Source of the DNA: Aurantiacibacter zhengii
GTDB taxonomy: Bacteria; Pseudomonadota; Alphaproteobacteria; Sphingomonadales; Sphingomonadaceae
NCBI RefSeq assembly: GCF_003584125.1
Contig: NZ_QXFL01000001.1
Span: forward strand, 124,001-188,000
DNA length: 64,000 bases
Reading direction: 5' to 3'
How positions within the stretch are numbered: the stretch's first letter is position 1; each line of letters opens with the position of its first letter. Below the pieces are notes generated by a model. That model worked only from the letters and a program-made list of their open reading frames with translations. It ran no database searches and was not told the origin of the DNA. This document shows, piece after piece, positions 6,101 through 13,188 of the stretch. Both the position numbers and the translations under genes were made by a program.

Positions 6101-6562
6101 TTAACGCTGGCCCTGTTGCGGCACGCCAAGCTGCGGCGTCTGCTGCGTGGCATTGGCCTGCACATTGGTATTGCCCAGCACTTCCATCACCGAGAGGTAG
6201 AAATTCGCGCAGGTGTTGGCGAAGTTATCCAGCTGCTGCCGGTTGGAATTGGCGATCAGGGTGGAAGCCTCGCGGAACTGGCCCACTGCCTCGGCCGAGG
6301 AATAGTGGCTCAATCGGCCGGCGTAGAAGGCCGAGATGATGGTGAGGTTGTTCAGGATGTCCACCCGCTGTTCGGGCGGCATCGAGGCCGTGTTCAGCAA
6401 TTGCGTACGCCGCTGCTGCATCAGCACGAAGCACTGGAAATCCTGCGGATTGGCAGGAAGGGTGCCTTGCTGCGCCAGGGCGGGGGTAGGAGCGGGGACT
6501 GGCGAAAGCGCCAGTCCCACACCCAGTGCAAGGGTAGTAGCGAGTGCGCGTAAGCGCATCAT
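6101..6562 (-). CDS. Small exported protein of unknown function
   Basis: 153 residues. The first 30 residues form a signal peptide ([19 protein letters not shown], then a Pro-rich stretch ending PALAQQ). The mature part is helical and carries two Cys residues (FQCFVLMQ and NTCANFY) that could pair in the periplasm; the C-terminus is Gln/Pro-rich. The ATG overlaps the rplY stop (ATGA), so translation is probably coupled to L25. The second in-frame Met is equally possible. I do not recognise the family. Its place between rplY and pth gives no functional hint. Confidence 0.75.
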
Positions 6563-7248
6563 TCGCTCTTTTCTTCCTGCTCTTCTTCAGCGTCCGCATC
6601 CGGACCCTGCTCGGTGGCGGCAACGCCATCTGCAGGCACGTCTTCTTCCTCTTCACCCTCTTCGCCTTCGGAGCGCTTGAGAGCCGAGGGAGCCACGACA
6701 GTGGCAATGGTGAAGTCGCGGTCGGTGATCGCGCTTTCCGAACCTTCGGGCAGCGTCAGTGCAGAAATGTGCACGGAATCGCCGACTTCGAGGCCGGCCA
6801 CGTCGATTTCGATCTCGCTGGGGATCTTGTCCGCTTCGCAGACCAGTTCCAGTTCATGACGAACCACGTTCAGAACGCCGCCCTTCTTGAGGCCGGGGCT
6901 GGCTTCTTCGTTGGTGAAGACGACCGGTACGTTCACGTCGATCTTGGCACCCTTGGCAAGGCGCAGGAAATCGACATGGATCGGGCGATCGGTAACGGGG
7001 TGCAAGGCCACATCCTTGGGCAGGGTGTTGGTCTTCTTGCCGTCAACGGTGACTTCGACGATGGAGTTCATGAAGTGACCGGTCATCAACAGCTTGACCA
7101 GCACCTTTTCTTCCACGTGGATAGTCGTGGGTTCTTCCTTGCCGCCATAAATAACGGCGGGTACGCGGCCATCGCGACGCAGCGCACGGGAGGCTCCCTT
7201 GCCAGCCCGTTCACGCATCTCGGCCGGCAGAGTCAGAGCGTCGCTCAT
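6559..7248 (-). CDS. rplY: 50S ribosomal protein L25 / general stress protein Ctc
   Basis: 229 residues, the long CTC form: an N-terminal L25 5S-rRNA-binding domain (about 1-95, with [20 protein letters not shown]) and a C-terminal Ctc beta domain (about 100-190), then an acidic low-complexity tail rich in Glu ([12 protein letters not shown] ... EEEQEEKSE). The protein binds 5S rRNA in the large subunit. It heads the rplY-exported protein-pth group on the minus strand. An imperfectly understood 8-bp inverted repeat lies in its leader. Confidence 0.96.
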
Positions 7249-7346: not shown

Positions 7347-8219
7347 CTACTGGATACGGCGCGTTGCATATCCGCGCTGCTCCAGCAGGGCCACGACGCC
7401 TGCATCGCCGATCACGTGACCGGCACCCACCGCGACGAACGGCTTTCGCCCGGTATCGATCAACTCGGCGATGCGCGGAACCCAGCGACCGTTTCTTTCG
7501 GTCAGCAAAACGCGCCTGAGTTCGGGCGAGAATTCGAGCGAATTGTTCACGTGATCCGCCAGCGCATCCTCATCGCCGGTCAACCAGGCGAGCAGCATTT
7601 CCTGGTCCGAATTTGCCTGGTGCGAACGTGCGACACCGTAAAGCAGATCGCTTTGGGCAGCGACCGAAAGCTTGTCGAACATGCCAAGCTGGAAGCCAAA
7701 GCTTTCTAGGCCGATCACGTCCTTGGCATTGTGGATCAGCACCCGGTCGACCCCGTTGGCCGGATCACCGGTCCGCACCTCTCCGGAGAGCATCATCGCT
7801 GCGGCCCAGCTTTCCACCCGTCCGAAATCCGTGCCTGTCATGTCTGCTTCCTCCAAGAGGTTACGCAGGGCAGGGCGCTGCGACGGCTCGACCCGCTCAA
7901 GCAAGGGCGGCAGACCGGGCGTTTCCGAAAGGTCGGCAAACAGGCCCATGCCGGCGGGATCGTCGAGATTGGCGACCTCCACCACCAGCACGCCGGACCG
8001 TTCGAACGTCTCGTCGATCAGCGGCGTGCCCCAGTACAGGTCGTCGGGCAGCGCGTGGACCGTGCCGAAAACCCAGCCAACGTCTCCTGCAGGGGAAGTC
8101 ACTTCCCAAAGCGGCGGAGAAGCCTCGGGCCAGTCGCTTTCCGGCACGAAAGGTTCGCCGCAGCCCGAAAGCCACAGCGACCCCGCGATCACGAAGGACT
8201 TGAGCAGGCTTGCGATCAA
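7347..8219 (-). CDS. TraB/GumN family lipoprotein (copy 1)
   Basis: 290 residues from a TTG start. TraB/GumN proteins share the TIKI fold and are putative membrane-associated metalloproteases; their bacterial role is mostly unknown. The two family signatures are present: [10 protein letters not shown] (about residue 52) and [14 protein letters not shown] near the C-terminus. I chose TTG at 8219 because it gives a lipoprotein signal ([19 protein letters not shown], Cys at residue 20) and overlaps the stop of the upstream TraB gene by two bases, implying coupled translation. The upstream part of the frame has no coding character. A GTG nine codons inside would leave an uncharged, shortened signal. 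Confidence 0.88.
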
Positions 8220-9103
8220 TTGCCGATACGCTCCACCGTCAGGCCGCGCTCTGCCAGCAGGCTCTGCACGCTGCCTTCGCCGGCAAGGTGCCCGGCACCC
8301 ACGGCGACGAAGACCGTGCCCGGTGTATCGAGGCGGGTTTCGAGCCAGTCGACCCAGTTGCGATTGCGGTTCACCAGCAGGCGCTCGCGCAGTTCGGGAT
8401 CGTCCATCTCGGCGTTCATGATCTCGCCCAGCGCGTCGGCATCGCCTTCCAGCCATTCGGCCTTCATCAGGTCAAGCGAAGACACCACGCGATCAAGGTT
8501 CTCTACCGTGGCATCGAGCAATTCGAGCTGGGCGTCCATCGGCAGGGTGTCGAACAGGGCGACCTGCTCTTCCATCGTTTCCAGCGCGCCGCGCTGCTTG
8601 TTCTCGCCGCGCTGGCGCAGCACCATTTCGACACCGGAGTTCGGCTGCCAGCCTGCTTGCAGCAAAGGCAGCATCGAAAGGTTGAGCGTCGCGGCCCAGG
8701 GCTCGACCGGGTCGAGCGCGCCGGCGGGCAGGCCAAGGCCTTCCATCGCAGCCTCGTATTCGGCGCGGTTTTCGTCGGTCATCAGGCTGCGCAGCGTCTG
8801 GCCTTCGGGAAGCATGGCGAGGCCGGCCATGGCCTGTGCGGCGCCTTCCATATCGTCCATCGCGATTTCGAAAACGAGTTCTTCTGAGGAATCGAAGGCG
8901 CTGGCGATACGCTCGTCATACCAGGTCTCGCCTTCGGGCAGCACGTGGATGGTGCCGAACAGGTAAATCGTCGTGTCCTCGTCGGACAGGCTCCACAGGG
9001 CAGGGCCGCTGGTTTCGGCGTGATCGTCTGCCATTGCGGGCGATGCGAATGCGCCAAGCGAGAGGGCAATGGCAGAGGCGGTGAGAGTCAGTTTGCGAAA
9101 CAT
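8216..9103 (-). CDS. TraB/GumN family secreted protein (copy 2)
   Basis: 295 residues from ATG at 9103, preceded by a good Shine-Dalgarno (aaggagc). The signal peptide ends at about residue 25 (ASPAMA). Family motifs: YLFGTIHVLPEG with His at residue 53 and VGAGHLAGEG at about residues 267-276. The core FEIAMDD contains the conserved acidic residues expected of a TIKI-type metal site. It sits between a small membrane-protein gene (46-base gap) and TraB copy 1 (overlapping). Mature region presumably periplasmic; substrate unknown. Confidence 0.9.
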   Translation of the reverse strand: MFRKLTLTASAIALSLGAFASPAMADDHAETSGPALWSLSDEDTTIYLFGTIHVLPEGETWYDERIASAFDSSEELVFEIAMDDMEGAAQAMAGLAMLPEGQTLRSLMTDENRAEYEAAMEGLGLPAGALDPVEPWAATLNLSMLPLLQAGWQPNSGVEMVLRQRGENKQRGALETMEEQVALFDTLPMDAQLELLDATVENLDRVVSSLDLMKAEWLEGDADALGEIMNAEMDDPELRERLLVNRNRNWVDWLETRLDTPGTVFVAVGAGHLAGEGSVQSLLAERGLTVERIGN

Positions 9104-9149
9104 AATTCGGCTCCTTGGGGGTTGGTCATTGATTGGAAGGAAGGAAAGG

Positions 9150-9575
9150 TCAGCGCAAGCCCAGCTTGCGGGCGATGTAGACGACTGCGCCGATACCCAG
9201 AGTGGCAAGATAGATCGCCACGTGATTGATTTCCGGCGCGAGGCCGAGGTCGTGGAACAGCCACCAGCTGGGGAAGGCAACGATGTAGAAATACAGGCCG
9301 AACAGGCAGCACCAGAGGTTGTCGAGCATGTCCAGTTCGTCGACCCGGCGGAAATATTCCCAGCTAAACCAGGCGAAACTCATGACGGCTACGACCCAGG
9401 TTGCGAACAGAGCCCATGCGGGCAGGGTTCCGTCCGCGTAAAGACCACCTGCATATCCGGCGACCAGGCCCACGCCAGCGGCAATCCCTGTGCCAATCGC
9501 GCAGAAACGCCAGAGACTGTTGCGGCGGGATTTGAGCCGGGCCTCGCCCGAGAAGGTATCAGTCTTGTCCGTCAT
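9150..9575 (-). CDS. Small four-helix membrane protein C, unknown function
   Basis: 141 residues from ATG at 9575, preceded by tcgaggagatcttcg, a convincing ribosome binding site. After a basic cytosolic N-terminus (RLKSRRNSLWRF) there are about four hydrophobic segments. Two short motifs recur in its neighbours: YADGTLPAW after helix 1 (YADGSYPAW in protein B) and RRVDELDML after helix 2 (RDEYAEQL in protein B, KSDEYTLGL in protein A). These suggest it is a divergent paralogue of both. It overlaps the XRE regulator gene by 17 bases. The layout recalls DUF2178-type membrane proteins beside XRE regulators, but I cannot place it in a named family. Confidence 0.75.
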   Translation of the reverse strand: MTDKTDTFSGEARLKSRRNSLWRFCAIGTGIAAGVGLVAGYAGGLYADGTLPAWALFATWVVAVMSFAWFSWEYFRRVDELDMLDNLWCCLFGLYFYIVAFPSWWLFHDLGLAPEINHVAIYLATLGIGAVVYIARKLGLR

Positions 9576-9756
9576 CGAAGATCTCCTCGATAGGCATGTC
9601 AAACAGGCGCGCGATGCGAAATGCGAGCGGCAGCGAGGGGTCGTGCTTGCCGGTCTCGATGGCGTTCACGGCCTGGCGCGATACCTCGAGCCTCCCTGCC
9701 AGTTCCGCCTGGCTCCAGTCGCGTTCGGCGCGCAAGACCTTGAGGCGGTTGTTCAT
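9559..9756 (-). CDS. Short XRE-family helix-turn-helix regulator
   Basis: 65 residues, essentially one HTH domain: MNNRLKVLRAERDWSQAELA, followed by the recognition helix region VSRQAVNAIETGKHDPSL and a C-terminal RIARLFDMPIEEIFDD. This is the single-domain Cro/CI-type regulator commonly encoded next to small membrane proteins. The ATG overlaps the stop of membrane protein B (ATGA), and its 3' end overlaps membrane protein C by 17 bases, so all are co-translated. It probably represses its own operon; no operator for it was identified with certainty. Confidence 0.93.
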   Translation of the reverse strand: MNNRLKVLRAERDWSQAELAGRLEVSRQAVNAIETGKHDPSLPLAFRIARLFDMPIEEIFDDGQD

Positions 9757-10229
9757 CGACTGTCCTTCCAGCGCAGGAACTGGAAAATGAAGACGAACAG
9801 GAGGCAGAAGTACTCGTATGCCTCCCACATCGCTTTCCACACGGTAATTTCTTCCATGAAAAGGTTGAAGGGGTAGGGCGCTTCCGGTGCCGAGGTTATC
9901 GCGTAAACCACGACCGCTGCGGCAAAGATCACAAACGGTACGGCCACCGCAACGTAGATCATCACGTCCGTAGTGCGATGGAACAACTGCTCGGCATATT
10001 CGTCGCGCATGAAACGCGCCACAACCAGGACCGGAGCGACGAAGGACGCCAGGAATATCCCGATATAGCCGAGGGCAAGGTACCAAGCGGGATAGCTCCC
10101 GTCGGCATAGACAAGGGGGGCAACGCTCAGCGCGGCATCGGCTATGAGGACGACACCTGCCAGCAGGCAAAGGTTCATCAGCCGGTAGTACCAGCGATAC
10201 AATCCGCGATCGGTCTTGGTCGCTTGCAT
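9753..10229 (-). CDS. Small four-helix membrane protein B, unknown function
   Basis: 158 residues from ATG at 10229 (a GTG one codon earlier is possible). Four hydrophobic segments: about residues 18-37, 49-69, 88-111 and 135-152. Motifs YADGSYPAW (loop 1) and RDEYAEQLFHR (after helix 2) are shared in spirit with proteins A and C. The start overlaps the stop of protein A by one base, and its stop overlaps the XRE start, so the gene is in a tightly coupled operon. Function unknown; DUF2178- or DUF2975-like by architecture only. Confidence 0.78.
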   Translation of the reverse strand: MQATKTDRGLYRWYYRLMNLCLLAGVVLIADAALSVAPLVYADGSYPAWYLALGYIGIFLASFVAPVLVVARFMRDEYAEQLFHRTTDVMIYVAVAVPFVIFAAAVVVYAITSAPEAPYPFNLFMEEITVWKAMWEAYEYFCLLFVFIFQFLRWKDSR

Positions 10230-10627
10230 CACAGGGCTCCTGTCAGGCGTTTTGTGTTGAATACCAGGTAGAAGGCCAGGATGGCAGCGATGCTGCCCCC
10301 CTCCGCCGGAAAGTTCATTCCGGCCTCGTTGCCTGTCAGTCCGTCATAGAACCCCTCGAAGAAAGGCGCGATCAGCATCCATGCCACGATCACTGCAAAC
10401 GCGGCGTTCGCGCCAGCGCCCCACAGCCCCAGCGTATATTCGTCGCTCTTGCGGGTCGCAAACATCACCGACAGGCTGACGATCAGTGCCAGCACGAACG
10501 GGGCGGCCGTGTAGGGCGGCGCGTCCATTATCCGTGCCGGAACGACAGCCATTATCGCCAACAGGCCGATAATGCCCATTAACAGGTTGAGCGGCGCACG
10601 GTTTTTGCGTGGCTTTGCTGACGTCAT
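10229..10627 (-). CDS. Small four-helix membrane protein A, unknown function
   Basis: 132 residues from ATG at 10627, with aggacc upstream as a possible ribosome binding site. The protein opens with a basic stretch (SAKPRKNRAP) and has about four hydrophobic segments. The motif RKSDEYTLGL after helix 2 aligns with RDEYAEQL of protein B and RRVDELDML of protein C. It is the first gene of the A-B-XRE-C group. A strong hairpin separates it from the urcA-like gene upstream. Confidence 0.75.
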   Translation of the reverse strand: MTSAKPRKNRAPLNLLMGIIGLLAIMAVVPARIMDAPPYTAAPFVLALIVSLSVMFATRKSDEYTLGLWGAGANAAFAVIVAWMLIAPFFEGFYDGLTGNEAGMNFPAEGGSIAAILAFYLVFNTKRLTGAL

Positions 10628-10660
10628 GTTTGAGCAGGTCCTGTGCAGAGAGGAATATAT

Positions 10661-10688
10661 CGGGGTCGGCGGGCTGGTGCCGACCCCG
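10661..10688 (-). terminator. Hairpin between urcA-like gene and the membrane-protein operon
   Basis: A perfect 10-bp stem (arms 10661-10670 and 10679-10688, 8-base loop) lies in the 74-base gap. On the minus strand it is followed by atatattcc, a weak U-containing stretch. It probably ends the urcA transcript, or attenuates read-through into the A-B-XRE-C genes. Confidence 0.55.
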
Positions 10689-10701
10689 AACCCGGTTGGC
10701 T

Positions 10702-11037
10702 TCACGCGCCGGGATTGGCTTCGATAGCGGCAAGGGAGGGGCCGCGCGCTTCGGCGATGGCGAGTTCGACCTGCGGGGCCAGCAGATCGGTCATGCTTTC
10801 CTGGCAGGCGCGCTGGGTCTTGCGCGAATGGGAGTCCATCCCGTTGACGCGGCAGGCGCGGCGGATGGCGTATTCGACACGGTCGTCCAGACGATCCCGG
10901 TCTTCCGCACGGGTAAGGTCGAGTCCGTCGAGACGGATTTCGACGGTAACATCGTTCTGCTCCGGCTGCGCAGCCGCAGGAACGGCGAGGGTGATAGCGG
11001 AAAGGGCGAACAGGGTGGTGGTGGCGATCTTGAACAT
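10702..11037 (-). CDS. UrcA family secreted protein
   Basis: 111 residues. Signal peptide of about 23 residues ending VPAAAQ. The mature part follows the UrcA pattern: VEIRLDGLDLTRAEDRDRLD, then ARRAC-like (YAIRRACRVNG) and a second Cys (QRACQESM), which probably form a disulfide. UrcA proteins are small exported proteins frequent in Sphingomonadales and Caulobacterales; function unknown. ATG start with a readable promoter about 70-100 bases upstream and two identical-pattern operator-like sites over it. Confidence 0.85.
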   Translation of the reverse strand: MFKIATTTLFALSAITLAVPAAAQPEQNDVTVEIRLDGLDLTRAEDRDRLDDRVEYAIRRACRVNGMDSHSRKTQRACQESMTDLLAPQVELAIAEARGPSLAAIEANPGA

Positions 11038-11091
11038 CTCAGGTCTCCAGCTTGGATATTGGGTCCAGTGGTTAGGTCAACCTTCCGTTAT

Positions 11092-11107
11092 GTCAGGTTG
11101 TCCTGAC
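11092..11107. promoter_or_regulatory. Operator-like palindrome 1 (GTCA-N8-TGAC) at the urcA promoter
   Basis: The bases gtcaggttgtcctgac form a perfect 6-bp inverted repeat around ttgt. The site adjoins the proposed -10 box (11108-11113) and covers the expected transcription start of the urcA-like gene, where a bound repressor would block initiation. Confidence 0.5.
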
Positions 11108-11136
11108 TTTATGTCGCGATTCGCTGACTATGTCAA
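11108..11136 (-). promoter_or_regulatory. Sigma-70-type promoter for the urcA-like gene
   Basis: On the minus strand TTGACA (11136-11131) is followed by a 17-base spacer and CATAAA (11113-11108). The -35 is a full consensus match and the -10 matches at four of six positions. The predicted start leaves a leader of about 65 bases before the ATG at 11037. Confidence 0.6.
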
Positions 11137-11147
11137 CAAGACCTGAC
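11132..11147. promoter_or_regulatory. Operator-like site 2 (GTCA-N8-TGAC) overlapping the -35 box
   Basis: The bases gtcaacaagacctgac share the GTCA-N8-TGAC frame of site 1 and begin exactly 40 bases from it, close to four helical turns. The site overlaps the TTGACA box. Two such half-site pairs bracketing a promoter look like a regulator binding region; the regulator is unknown. Confidence 0.45.
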
Positions 11148-11215
11148 AAAAAGACACGCAGGCATGACCATAGGTTCAGCAAACTGCTGATATGCAAGCA
11201 TAACCATCCCAGAGA

Positions 11216-12181
11216 TCAGTTGATGCGACGGGCCCGCAAACCACGGCCCTCGAGGTATGCGAGGACCGACTCGGGTCCCTCGAAGTGTCCTGCGCCCACC
11301 GCCAGCAGTACCGTACCAGGTTGCTCCAGCCGGTTTTCCAGCCAAGCGGCCCACTGGGCGTTGCGCCGGTCGAGCAAAACCTCGTTGAAGGCATCGCCGA
11401 TCTTGCCACCGCCAAAGCCCAAGTCGAATTCCTCGGCAACCTCGCCGCGCGCCCAGGCGTGCTCCATCGCCCAGTAGTCGTTGCCGACCAGAGCCTGCGT
11501 TTCGGCGCTGTAGAGCCCGTCCAGCGTCTTGCCGCCCCATTGCCGAAGCTGCACGTCCAGCTCGCTCACCACGGCCTCGTCATCGGTGCGGAAAAGCGAG
11601 TACATCACGCGTCCGAAATCCTCGATCGACTCGATCGGCTTGCCACGCTCGGTAAACTCCCGCTGAAGCACGGTTTCCACTCCATGATCGTAGCTTGACG
11701 GATCACCCGCCAGCCCGGCCTGCCCGAAACCCAAAAGCGCCACCATGACCGGAACGTTGTCGACATACTCGAACGGAAGCCCGCTCATCGCGACGAGCTG
11801 GCGCCAGCGGGGGCGCGACTGGGGGGATAGCTGGGCGGAGGTGGGTTGCCGGTTCGCCAGCACCCGCACGATCTTGGGGCTGATCGATTCCACCGCCCCT
11901 TCGCTGTCGGCATCGCTGGTCTCCACCACCAGCACGTCCGCCTCCTCGATGATGGTGTCGAGCTGCGGATTGCGCCAGCGAAACCCCTCGGGCAGCAGGT
12001 GGATCGTGCCCAGCATGTAGATTGTCGTATCCTCGTCCGACAGTTCCCACATGGCGGGCGCGGGATCGTAATCCTGGGTGAAGGCATAGCGGCCATCCTC
12101 CTGCGCCAGCAGCGGTAGGGGGAGGGTGGCGGCCAGCGTGGCAGCCACAGCGCCCAAGGCCTTGAGAACACGGCTCGTCAT
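11216..12181 (-). CDS. TraB/GumN family secreted protein (copy 3)
   Basis: 321 residues from ATG at 12181. Signal peptide of about 27 residues ending PLLAQ. Family motifs: [13 protein letters not shown] (His at about residue 61) and [15 protein letters not shown] near the C-terminus. The phrase [20 protein letters not shown] is nearly the same as [20 protein letters not shown] in copy 2, so these two are close paralogues, with copy 1 more divergent. It is divergent from glyQ and lies upstream of the urcA-like gene on the same strand. An alternative Met seven codons upstream would give a poorer signal peptide. Confidence 0.9.
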
Positions 12182-12276: not shown

Positions 12277-13188
12277 ATGGACAACAATCCGGCAAGAGAC
12301 CCCAAGGCCAGCTTCCAGGACATGATCCTGGCCCTGCACGATTTCTGGAGCGCGCAGGGCTGCCTGATCCTGCAACCCTACGACATGCGCATGGGCGCAG
12401 GCACCTTCCACACCGCCACCACGCTGCGCGCGCTGGGGCCGGAGCCGTGGAACGCCGCCTTCGTGCAGCCGTGCCGCCGCCCGACCGATGGTCGCTATGG
12501 CGAGAACCCGAACCGGTTGCAGCACTACTACCAGTACCAGGTCATCCTGAAGCCGAGCCCGGCAAACATTCAGGACCTGTACCTCGAAAGCCTGCGCGTC
12601 ATCGGCATCGACCCGCTGAAGCATGATATCCGCTTCGTGGAGGACGACTGGGAAAGCCCGACGCTGGGTGCATGGGGCCTTGGCTGGGAAGTGTGGTGCG
12701 ACGGGATGGAAGTCACCCAGTTCACCTATTTCCAGCAGATGGGCGGTTTCGACTGCAAGCCGGTTGCGGGTGAATTGACCTACGGCCTCGAGCGCCTCGC
12801 CATGTACATCCAAGGCGTGGACAACGTGTACGATCTCGACTTCAACGGTCGCGGAGTTTCGTATGGCGAAGTCTTCCTCGAGAACGAGAAGCAGATGTCG
12901 AAGTGGAACTTCGAGGTTGCCGAGACCGATCCCCTGTTCGACCTGTTCAACAAGGCGGAGGCGGAGTGCAGGAACGCGCTCGACGCCGACGTTCCCATCG
13001 CCGCCTACGAACAGGCGGTGGAGGCCAGCCACCTGTTCAACCTGCTGCAAGCGCGCGGCGTGATCAGCGTGCAGGAACGCGCCAGCTACATGGCCCGCGT
13101 GCGCGACCTGGCGCGCGGTTCCTGTGAGAAATACGCGGAGAAAATGGCGCCTGCCTGGAAAGAGAAATATCCGGAGTGGTCGCTATGA
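12277..13188 (+). CDS. glyQ: Glycyl-tRNA synthetase alpha subunit
   Basis: 303 residues, the standard length of the catalytic alpha chain of the alpha2/beta2 glycyl-tRNA synthetase. Recognisable class II core: [60 protein letters not shown] and [20 protein letters not shown]. The ATG at 12277 gives the usual short N-terminus; the frame stays open upstream without similarity. Its stop overlaps the glyS start (ATGA). Confidence 0.98.

Follow-up and report, generated by a model that had tools for sequence, protein, structure and literature searches.

On balance we favour the view that a stretch of the Aurantiacibacter zhengii genome encodes a locus of three TraB/GumN proteins coupled to an autorepressed, membrane-signalled switch, which would control these exported, Tiki-type hydrolases. 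The window, i.e., the whole stretch analysed, comprises 64,000 nucleotides (contig NZ_QXFL01000001.1 of RefSeq assembly GCF_003584125.1, positions 124,001 to 188,000 of the forward strand), and all coordinates below refer to it unless a contig is named. Sequence comparison suggests a testable regulatory system, in which a CylR2-like repressor of the XRE type, its membrane partners and an array of operators would form one operon with the TraB/GumN hydrolases. The component families are already known; what is new is the XRE/operator/membrane module in the middle of the locus, and a literature search, a narrow check with subscription papers mostly outside it, found no account of such a locus. TraB/GumN proteins occur widely in bacteria, and to our knowledge what they do is still mostly open. 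Their link to a dedicated repressor, whose operator can be recognised, would offer a way to their signal and substrate, and the operator would predict, from sequence alone, the sites of membrane protein–XRE switches in other Alphaproteobacteria.

The locus is transcribed from the minus strand in the order T3, UrcA, MC, MA, XRE, MB, T2, T1, followed by rplY and pth, and consists of the following genes:

7347..8219, minus strand: T1, exported TraB/GumN lipoprotein of 290 amino acids (PF01963, 172.9 bits; LSGC lipobox)
8216..9103, minus strand: T2, exported TraB/GumN protein of 295 amino acids (PF01963, 246.5 bits), the equivalent of the single TraB gene of relatives
9150..9575, minus strand: MB, small membrane protein of 141 amino acids with about four predicted helices; its start overlaps the end of XRE by 17 nt
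9559..9756, minus strand: XRE, CylR2-like DNA-binding protein of 65 amino acids, the presumed autorepressor (HTH_3, E 8.5e-15; CylR2 structures, 9.8e-14; 9k3w, 5e-23)
9753..10229, minus strand: MA, small membrane protein of 158 amino acids; ATGA overlap with XRE
10229..10627, minus strand: MC, small membrane protein of 132 amino acids; its stop overlaps the start of MA
10702..11037, minus strand: exported protein of the UrcA family, 111 amino acids, here the first gene of the module (TIGR04433, 68.9 bits)
11216..12181, minus strand: T3, exported non-lipoprotein TraB/GumN protein of 321 amino acids (PF01963, 152.7 bits), upstream of the operator array

All three TraB/GumN paralogues that an initial annotation had placed here on one strand lie above the Pfam cut-off of 26.8 bits for PF01963 (TraB_PrgY_gumN), and its description of four small overlapping genes and an UrcA gene between T2 and T3 agrees with the overlaps of the open reading frames (ORFs) and with the UrcA score (family cut-off 25 bits). 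T2 and T1 overlap as well, the TTG start of T1 lying inside the T2 stop (TTGA), and 46 nt separate MB from T2 (41–49 nt, counting the stop codon, in the 12 loci of the genus listed). The lipobox of T1 and the signal-peptide-like starts of T2 and T3, all read by eye, likewise accord with the earlier view that copy 1 is a lipoprotein and that all three are exported. The NCBIfam model TIGR00261 ('traB', threshold 178.35 bits) was not reached (16.4 for T1, 12 for T3, no match for T2), and no Pfam match to MA or MC was obtained at E up to 0.1.

The comparison covered the TraB locus of 39 of 40 genomes of the same genus, window included (the fortieth, G001, 69% complete, gave no T2 match), and of 100 of the 116 further genomes of the family, which together gave 139 loci. 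XRE is matched in 62 of them (26/39 in the genus, 36/100 in the rest of the family), always on the strand of T2 (63/63 matches) and always upstream of it (62/62 loci). The protein is mostly 81–100% identical across loci (exceptions: L136 at 66%, L046 at 67% and L053 at 74%), while its membrane partners vary in number and sequence. Among the 62 XRE loci, MB is matched in 35, MC in 22, UrcA in 18 and MA in 11, a count that misses diverged membrane genes, and none of the four is matched in the 77 loci without XRE; UrcA and MC are members of the module, but optional ones. An adjoining ORF with at least two predicted membrane helices accompanies 59 of the 63 XRE matches, as counted by simple hydropathy on mechanical ORFs; MA and MB have three to four. 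Within the 40 genomes of the genus, every XRE match of at least 84% identity (24/24, 84–100%) lies in the TraB locus, and the other matches listed lie elsewhere, save those of G037 (73%, partial) and G030 (68%).

Evidence for the switch comes from palindromes in front of the module, whose consensus TGTCA-N8-TGACA is probably the operator of XRE. In the window, the candidates, recognised as sequence matches and given without strand, are:

11091..11108: operator 1, TGTCA-N8-TGACT (one mismatch)
11112..11129: operator 2, TGTCG-N8-TGACT (two mismatches), 21 bp after operator 1
11131..11148: operator 3, a perfect TGTCA-N8-TGACA, 40 bp after operator 1
11152..11169: possible weak operator 4 (three mismatches), 61 bp after operator 1, a spacing that recurs elsewhere

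Sites with at most one mismatch were counted between the TraB genes and glyQ, or for 1.5 kb further where no glyQ was available. At least one was present in 59 of the 62 XRE loci (35/36 outside the genus), against none of the 77 loci without XRE. In total, the XRE loci had 113 sites in 256 kb of this stretch and 6 in 674 kb of flanks; the XRE-less loci had none in 167 kb and 3 in 921 kb, respectively. Most of the sites are found upstream of the gene that opens the module, and their dominant spacings, at up to two mismatches, are 21 bp (76 pairs), 40 bp (69), 61 bp (37) and 19 bp (36), i.e., about two turns of DNA or multiples thereof, so that bound dimers would share one face of the helix. The three XRE loci without an operator at this stringency are L053, L059, which has two-mismatch sites, and L136, with its divergent XRE. 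In L053 (G037 C1) the start of XRE is altered and no operator appears even at two mismatches, as if switch and operator had decayed together. The motif also stands upstream of 18 of the 20 paralogous XRE modules without TraB that were examined, out of 33 copies with 70–82% identity outside the TraB locus, which points to a wider family of membrane protein–XRE switches.

A scan of 385 genomes from the class gave 18 with an XRE of this kind (E 1e-15 or better), of which 13 lie beyond the family of the window. Other families contribute 15 XRE loci, and 12 of these have the motif upstream. TraB adjoins on the same strand in three of the 15; the three belong to a single family of another order, in which two further XRE loci lack TraB. 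The arrangement is rmuC, membrane gene, XRE, membrane gene, TraB in G206 and rmuC, membrane gene, XRE, TraB in G480 (rmuC named by eye in both), and membrane gene, XRE, TraB in G556, which has no rmuC match and whose TraB start shares an ATGA with the stop of XRE. The palindromes of the other order have one or two mismatches, and those upstream in G556 are 21 bp apart. In a tree, the three TraB proteins (support for the trio, 86) group with those of other Sphingomonadales families (Shimodaira–Hasegawa-like approximate likelihood ratio test, 97) and outside the main T2 group (94); a single cassette moved from the family of the window into the other order was therefore left unsupported. Within the family itself, five further XRE–TraB loci have no rplY match (L101, L129, L131, L136 and L138; L101 is a short contig). 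As operators track XRE and the sequence membrane gene–XRE–TraB is met again in another order and in different chromosomal surroundings, it is very unlikely that XRE and TraB are linked by chance.

In the mechanism that we propose, XRE, as a CylR2-like dimer, would bind the array in front of the module, whose 18-bp palindromes are spaced by about two turns of the helix, and thereby repress UrcA-MC-MA-XRE-MB and, through read-through, T2-T1. MA and MB would act in the manner of CylR1, holding or altering XRE and so freeing the operon, and the trigger might be a disturbed envelope, or a peptide or metal signal. T2, in the periplasm, and T1, as a lipoprotein, would then hydrolyse an envelope substrate via a site of two histidines and two glutamates (2His/2Glu), and T3, from a promoter of its own upstream of the array, would supply a basal activity. 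We infer the binding and repression by XRE, the read-through into T2-T1, the separate promoter of T3 and the hydrolase activity; the signal is guessed by analogy, as is the role of the membrane proteins in sensing it. That T2-T1 would be read from the array promoter is suggested by strand, by spacing and by the recurrence in the other order.

The analogy is with Enterococcus faecalis, where, according to PMC3709268, the cytolysin regulator CylR2 acts as repressor of an operon, and a peptide signal from outside is believed to be relayed by CylR1, which has three predicted helices. As in CylR1/CylR2, a DNA-binding protein of the same kind, of 65–66 amino acids, stands beside a small multi-helix membrane protein; residues 3–61 of the 65 in XRE align to CylR2, although XRE is closer to 9k3w. 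MA and MB are likened to CylR1 by helix count and gene position, not by sequence kinship. Unlike CylR1/CylR2, the operon of the window has TraB hydrolases, a multi-site operator array and two or three membrane proteins. Operator arrays of the HipB type have 5-bp half-sites, an 8-bp gap and several operators in a row, as does the window; its half-site is, however, TGTCA rather than TATCC, and no kinase toxin partner was named in it.

Several observations weigh against this mechanism. TraB occurs without XRE in 77 of the 139 loci, and XRE without TraB both in the 20 paralogous copies examined and, within about 1.5 kb, in 12 of the 15 XRE loci outside the family; neither therefore needs the other. 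The nearest matched module gene is 490–1300 nt from T2 in 14 of the 62 loci, where other genes or promoters may intervene, and a promoter for T2-T1 could lie inside MB. The exact eight-gene order was found in only four of the 139 loci (L035, L036, L054 and L063, window included, matched genes only). The half-sites were picked by eye from two palindromes within 11080–11170 and counted afterwards, and the window alone, with three sites against a mean of 0.87 in shuffles (reached by 4 of 100), is modestly above chance, so that the operator evidence rests on the comparison across loci. Both upstream palindromes in G206 and in G480 have two mismatches and are 32 bp apart. As to structure, the four-helix model of MB is of low confidence (predicted local distance difference test, pLDDT, 60) and that of T2 is weak (pLDDT 64), its best Foldseek match being a Tetrahymena complex IV subunit (E 5.7e-3, Z 7.4–7.6).

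Among the alternatives the most serious, which we hold to be possible but distinctly less probable than the operon with TraB, is that the XRE/membrane module controls itself only and merely settled upstream of T2, with T2-T1 under their own promoter and the TraB proteins as bystanders. It would explain why module copies without TraB carry the same operator and why so many TraB loci lack the module, and scans for promoters and terminators leave the MB–T2 gap unsettled (for promoters, 3 matches against 1.1 in shuffled sequence; for terminators, 4 against 4.8, with operator 1 itself among the 4; uninformative). Self-control alone fits poorly, however, with the constant strand and position of XRE relative to T2, with the reappearance of XRE–TraB in another order, in one case overlapping by ATGA, and with the confinement of the best-conserved XRE group of the genus to the TraB locus.

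The hydrolase part of the proposed mechanism depends on the active site. H53, E79, E175 and H272 (T2 numbering) are 99–100% conserved in 104 T2, 85 T1, 40 T3 and 44 single-copy proteins; together with R246 (Arg246) and N247 (Asn247), the two histidines and two glutamates are at least 95% conserved in every class, and G269, like H272, reaches 99–100% in all of them. A stricter motif near the end, G.GH, is found in only 34 of the 85 T1 proteins because T1 often has GAAH. The four residues fit the 2His/2Glu active site described for the Tiki superfamily (PMC6254334), a correspondence drawn from conservation and not from structure, and T1–T3 may thus be hydrolases. As in other members of TraB/PrgY/GumN (PF01963), the matches are full-length; unlike in the usual member, three paralogues share one locus, one is a lipoprotein and the set is tied to a repressor module. 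The TraB paralogues could instead bind peptides and leave them uncut, as pseudoenzymes or chaperones, which we think unlikely: nothing was found that demonstrates catalysis by bacterial GumN proteins, and the T2 model is weak, but catalytic residues would be expected to decay in pseudoenzymes, and the conserved histidines and glutamates, with Arg246 and Asn247, count against this. For the same weak model the match to 2rad ('BcR135' in its title) gave E 1.7 and Z 2.8, and a search of solved structures with the T2 sequence returned only designed proteins and cysteine synthases (nine sequences up to E 1).

The nature of the signal invites two more specific suggestions, both improbable as they stand. 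In enterococcal peptide signalling, TraB/PrgY serves in pheromone control. The locus might accordingly be a Gram-negative circuit of peptide surveillance, in which TraB/GumN would trim or destroy an exported or envelope peptide, the membrane proteins would read its level and the repressor would set TraB through the cooperative array, a rather long shot; if true, one operon would join homologues of both halves of that signalling (TraB/PrgY and CylR1/CylR2). We know of no peptide pheromone in these bacteria. A little less probable still is a locus of metal or envelope stress, with T1–T3 as periplasmic, metal-linked quality-control enzymes and UrcA as the mark of a metal response. The UrcA family, to which the window protein belongs by score although it is only an optional first gene of the module, responds to uranyl, from which its name derives. 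It is matched in only 18 of the 139 loci, and the named neighbours of the locus (a TPR protein, pth, rplY, glyQS and ppdK) are not metal genes, no search having been aimed at such genes. Copper may nevertheless be a lead for the signal or substrate, since the core set of genes that copper induces in Erwinia amylovora includes a TraB/GumN gene (log2 2.5 to 3.6; PMC12542790), which is likened to the window copies by family. Finally, that XRE and the membrane proteins are a toxin–antitoxin-like or defence element lodged at a stable position in the chromosome is quite improbable, as the membrane genes differ while XRE is largely constant and the linkage to TraB is found in two orders, even if XRE resembles antitoxin regulators below the cut-off (TIGR03070, 34.5 against 71.65 bits), MB has a sub-threshold SLATT match (16.6 against 41) and the presence of the element varies between loci.

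The history of the TraB genes was followed with the 275 TraB proteins that a profile search gave in the 139 loci, each classed by its best match to T1, T2 or T3 of the window. In XRE loci with three TraB genes, the copy above XRE is T3-like (27/27) and the two lowest are T1-like and T2-like (28/28 each), and in the nine triples without XRE class follows position in all nine for each copy. The lower gene of a pair is T1-like in 47 of 57 (T2-like in nine, T3-like in one) and the upper T2-like in 55 (T3-like in two); T2 is the best match of 42 of the 44 single-copy genes. Position and class disagree in L046, which carries a third, T2-like gene below XRE, and L069 has four TraB genes. The tree of these proteins left out two of the 275, outside 220–345 amino acids; a smaller, better one was a quick tree of 116 rows with midpoint root (at most seven per class plus the copies of the window; long branches, L279, L282 and L167). 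In it T3 forms one group (support 89), T1 another (99, with one single-copy gene inside), and 27 of 29 T2 rows cluster with most of the single copies and with the genes of other families (89), while two genes that are the lower of a pair fall outside. These class counts and the grouping of single copies with T2 point to T2 as the probable ancestral copy, to which T1 and T3 would have been added long ago.

The initial annotation had taken copies 2 and 3 for duplicates by their near-identical opening. The likeness is there, yet it marks the subfamily as a whole (D41, D43 and T44, in T2 numbering, reach 91% conservation or more across T2, T3 and the single-copy genes), and a recent tandem duplication of T1–T3 is ruled out by full-length identities of 33% (T2/T3), 32% (T1/T2) and 26% (T1/T3) and by the old positional groups. 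A lipobox is present in 82 of 84 T1, 0 of 40 T3, 42 of 103 T2 and 12 of 44 single-copy proteins, from which it follows that the copies probably occupy different places in the envelope; a shared envelope function of T1–T3 is plausible.

The neighbours on either side of the locus are:

12277..13188, plus strand: glyQ, divergent from T3
6559..7248, minus strand: rplY (50S L25/general stress protein, named by eye), downstream of T1

The TraB paralogues sit in largely fixed slots in genus and family. The usual site in the family is rplY-TraB-glyQ, with both neighbours in 77 of the 100 loci outside the genus, glyQ only in 12, rplY only in 4 and neither in 7 (contig ends not separated out); neither gene was matched in the 8–15 kb around TraB in any of 17 genomes of other Sphingomonadales families. 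The expectation that the eight-gene order is conserved among relatives was not sustained, the four loci named above being the only ones to show it, and in L063 extra ORFs are interspersed. The grouping had been said to be chance if neighbours vary freely in close relatives. The membrane genes, MC and UrcA do vary, but within one slot, on one strand and never without XRE, and with the fixed slots and the recurrence in another order the grouping itself stands.

Some loci and sites deserve separate mention. In the TraB locus L101 (G148 C361), XRE is matched twice at a distance of about 0.7 kb, the lower match being partial, which suggests a duplication of the module. In L064 (G028 C2, 10685–12055), glyS matches end after residue 377, followed by a short inverted piece of glyS, and ppdK is not matched in this locus; an inversion, an insertion or an assembly fault would account for this in a gene expected to be essential. 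The A. zhengii genome has a fourth TraB/GumN gene (60 bits) on another contig (C28:97705-98484, L004), between an alpha/beta hydrolase-like and an amidohydrolase-like gene. It also has a third copy of XRE (56%; C12:494277-494462, L179), which overlaps the start of the downstream gene for a protein of 217 amino acids with about six predicted helices, no matching operator being found within the 3 kb examined. Three perfect operator sites occur in this genome; the 34 others, with one mismatch (operator 1 included), are not callable as an XRE regulon, since a reversed control pattern gives 21. Besides the site in this locus, one lies upstream of an XRE paralogue (75%; C8:8097-9554, L178/L207), which stands behind membrane genes and has no TraB match. 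The other, at C24:20323-20340 (L182), lies between a methyltransferase gene and a bchC-like gene, both named by eye; it also fits what we take to be the PpsR consensus, TGT-N12-ACA, so that a photosynthesis gene cluster may be present in A. zhengii.

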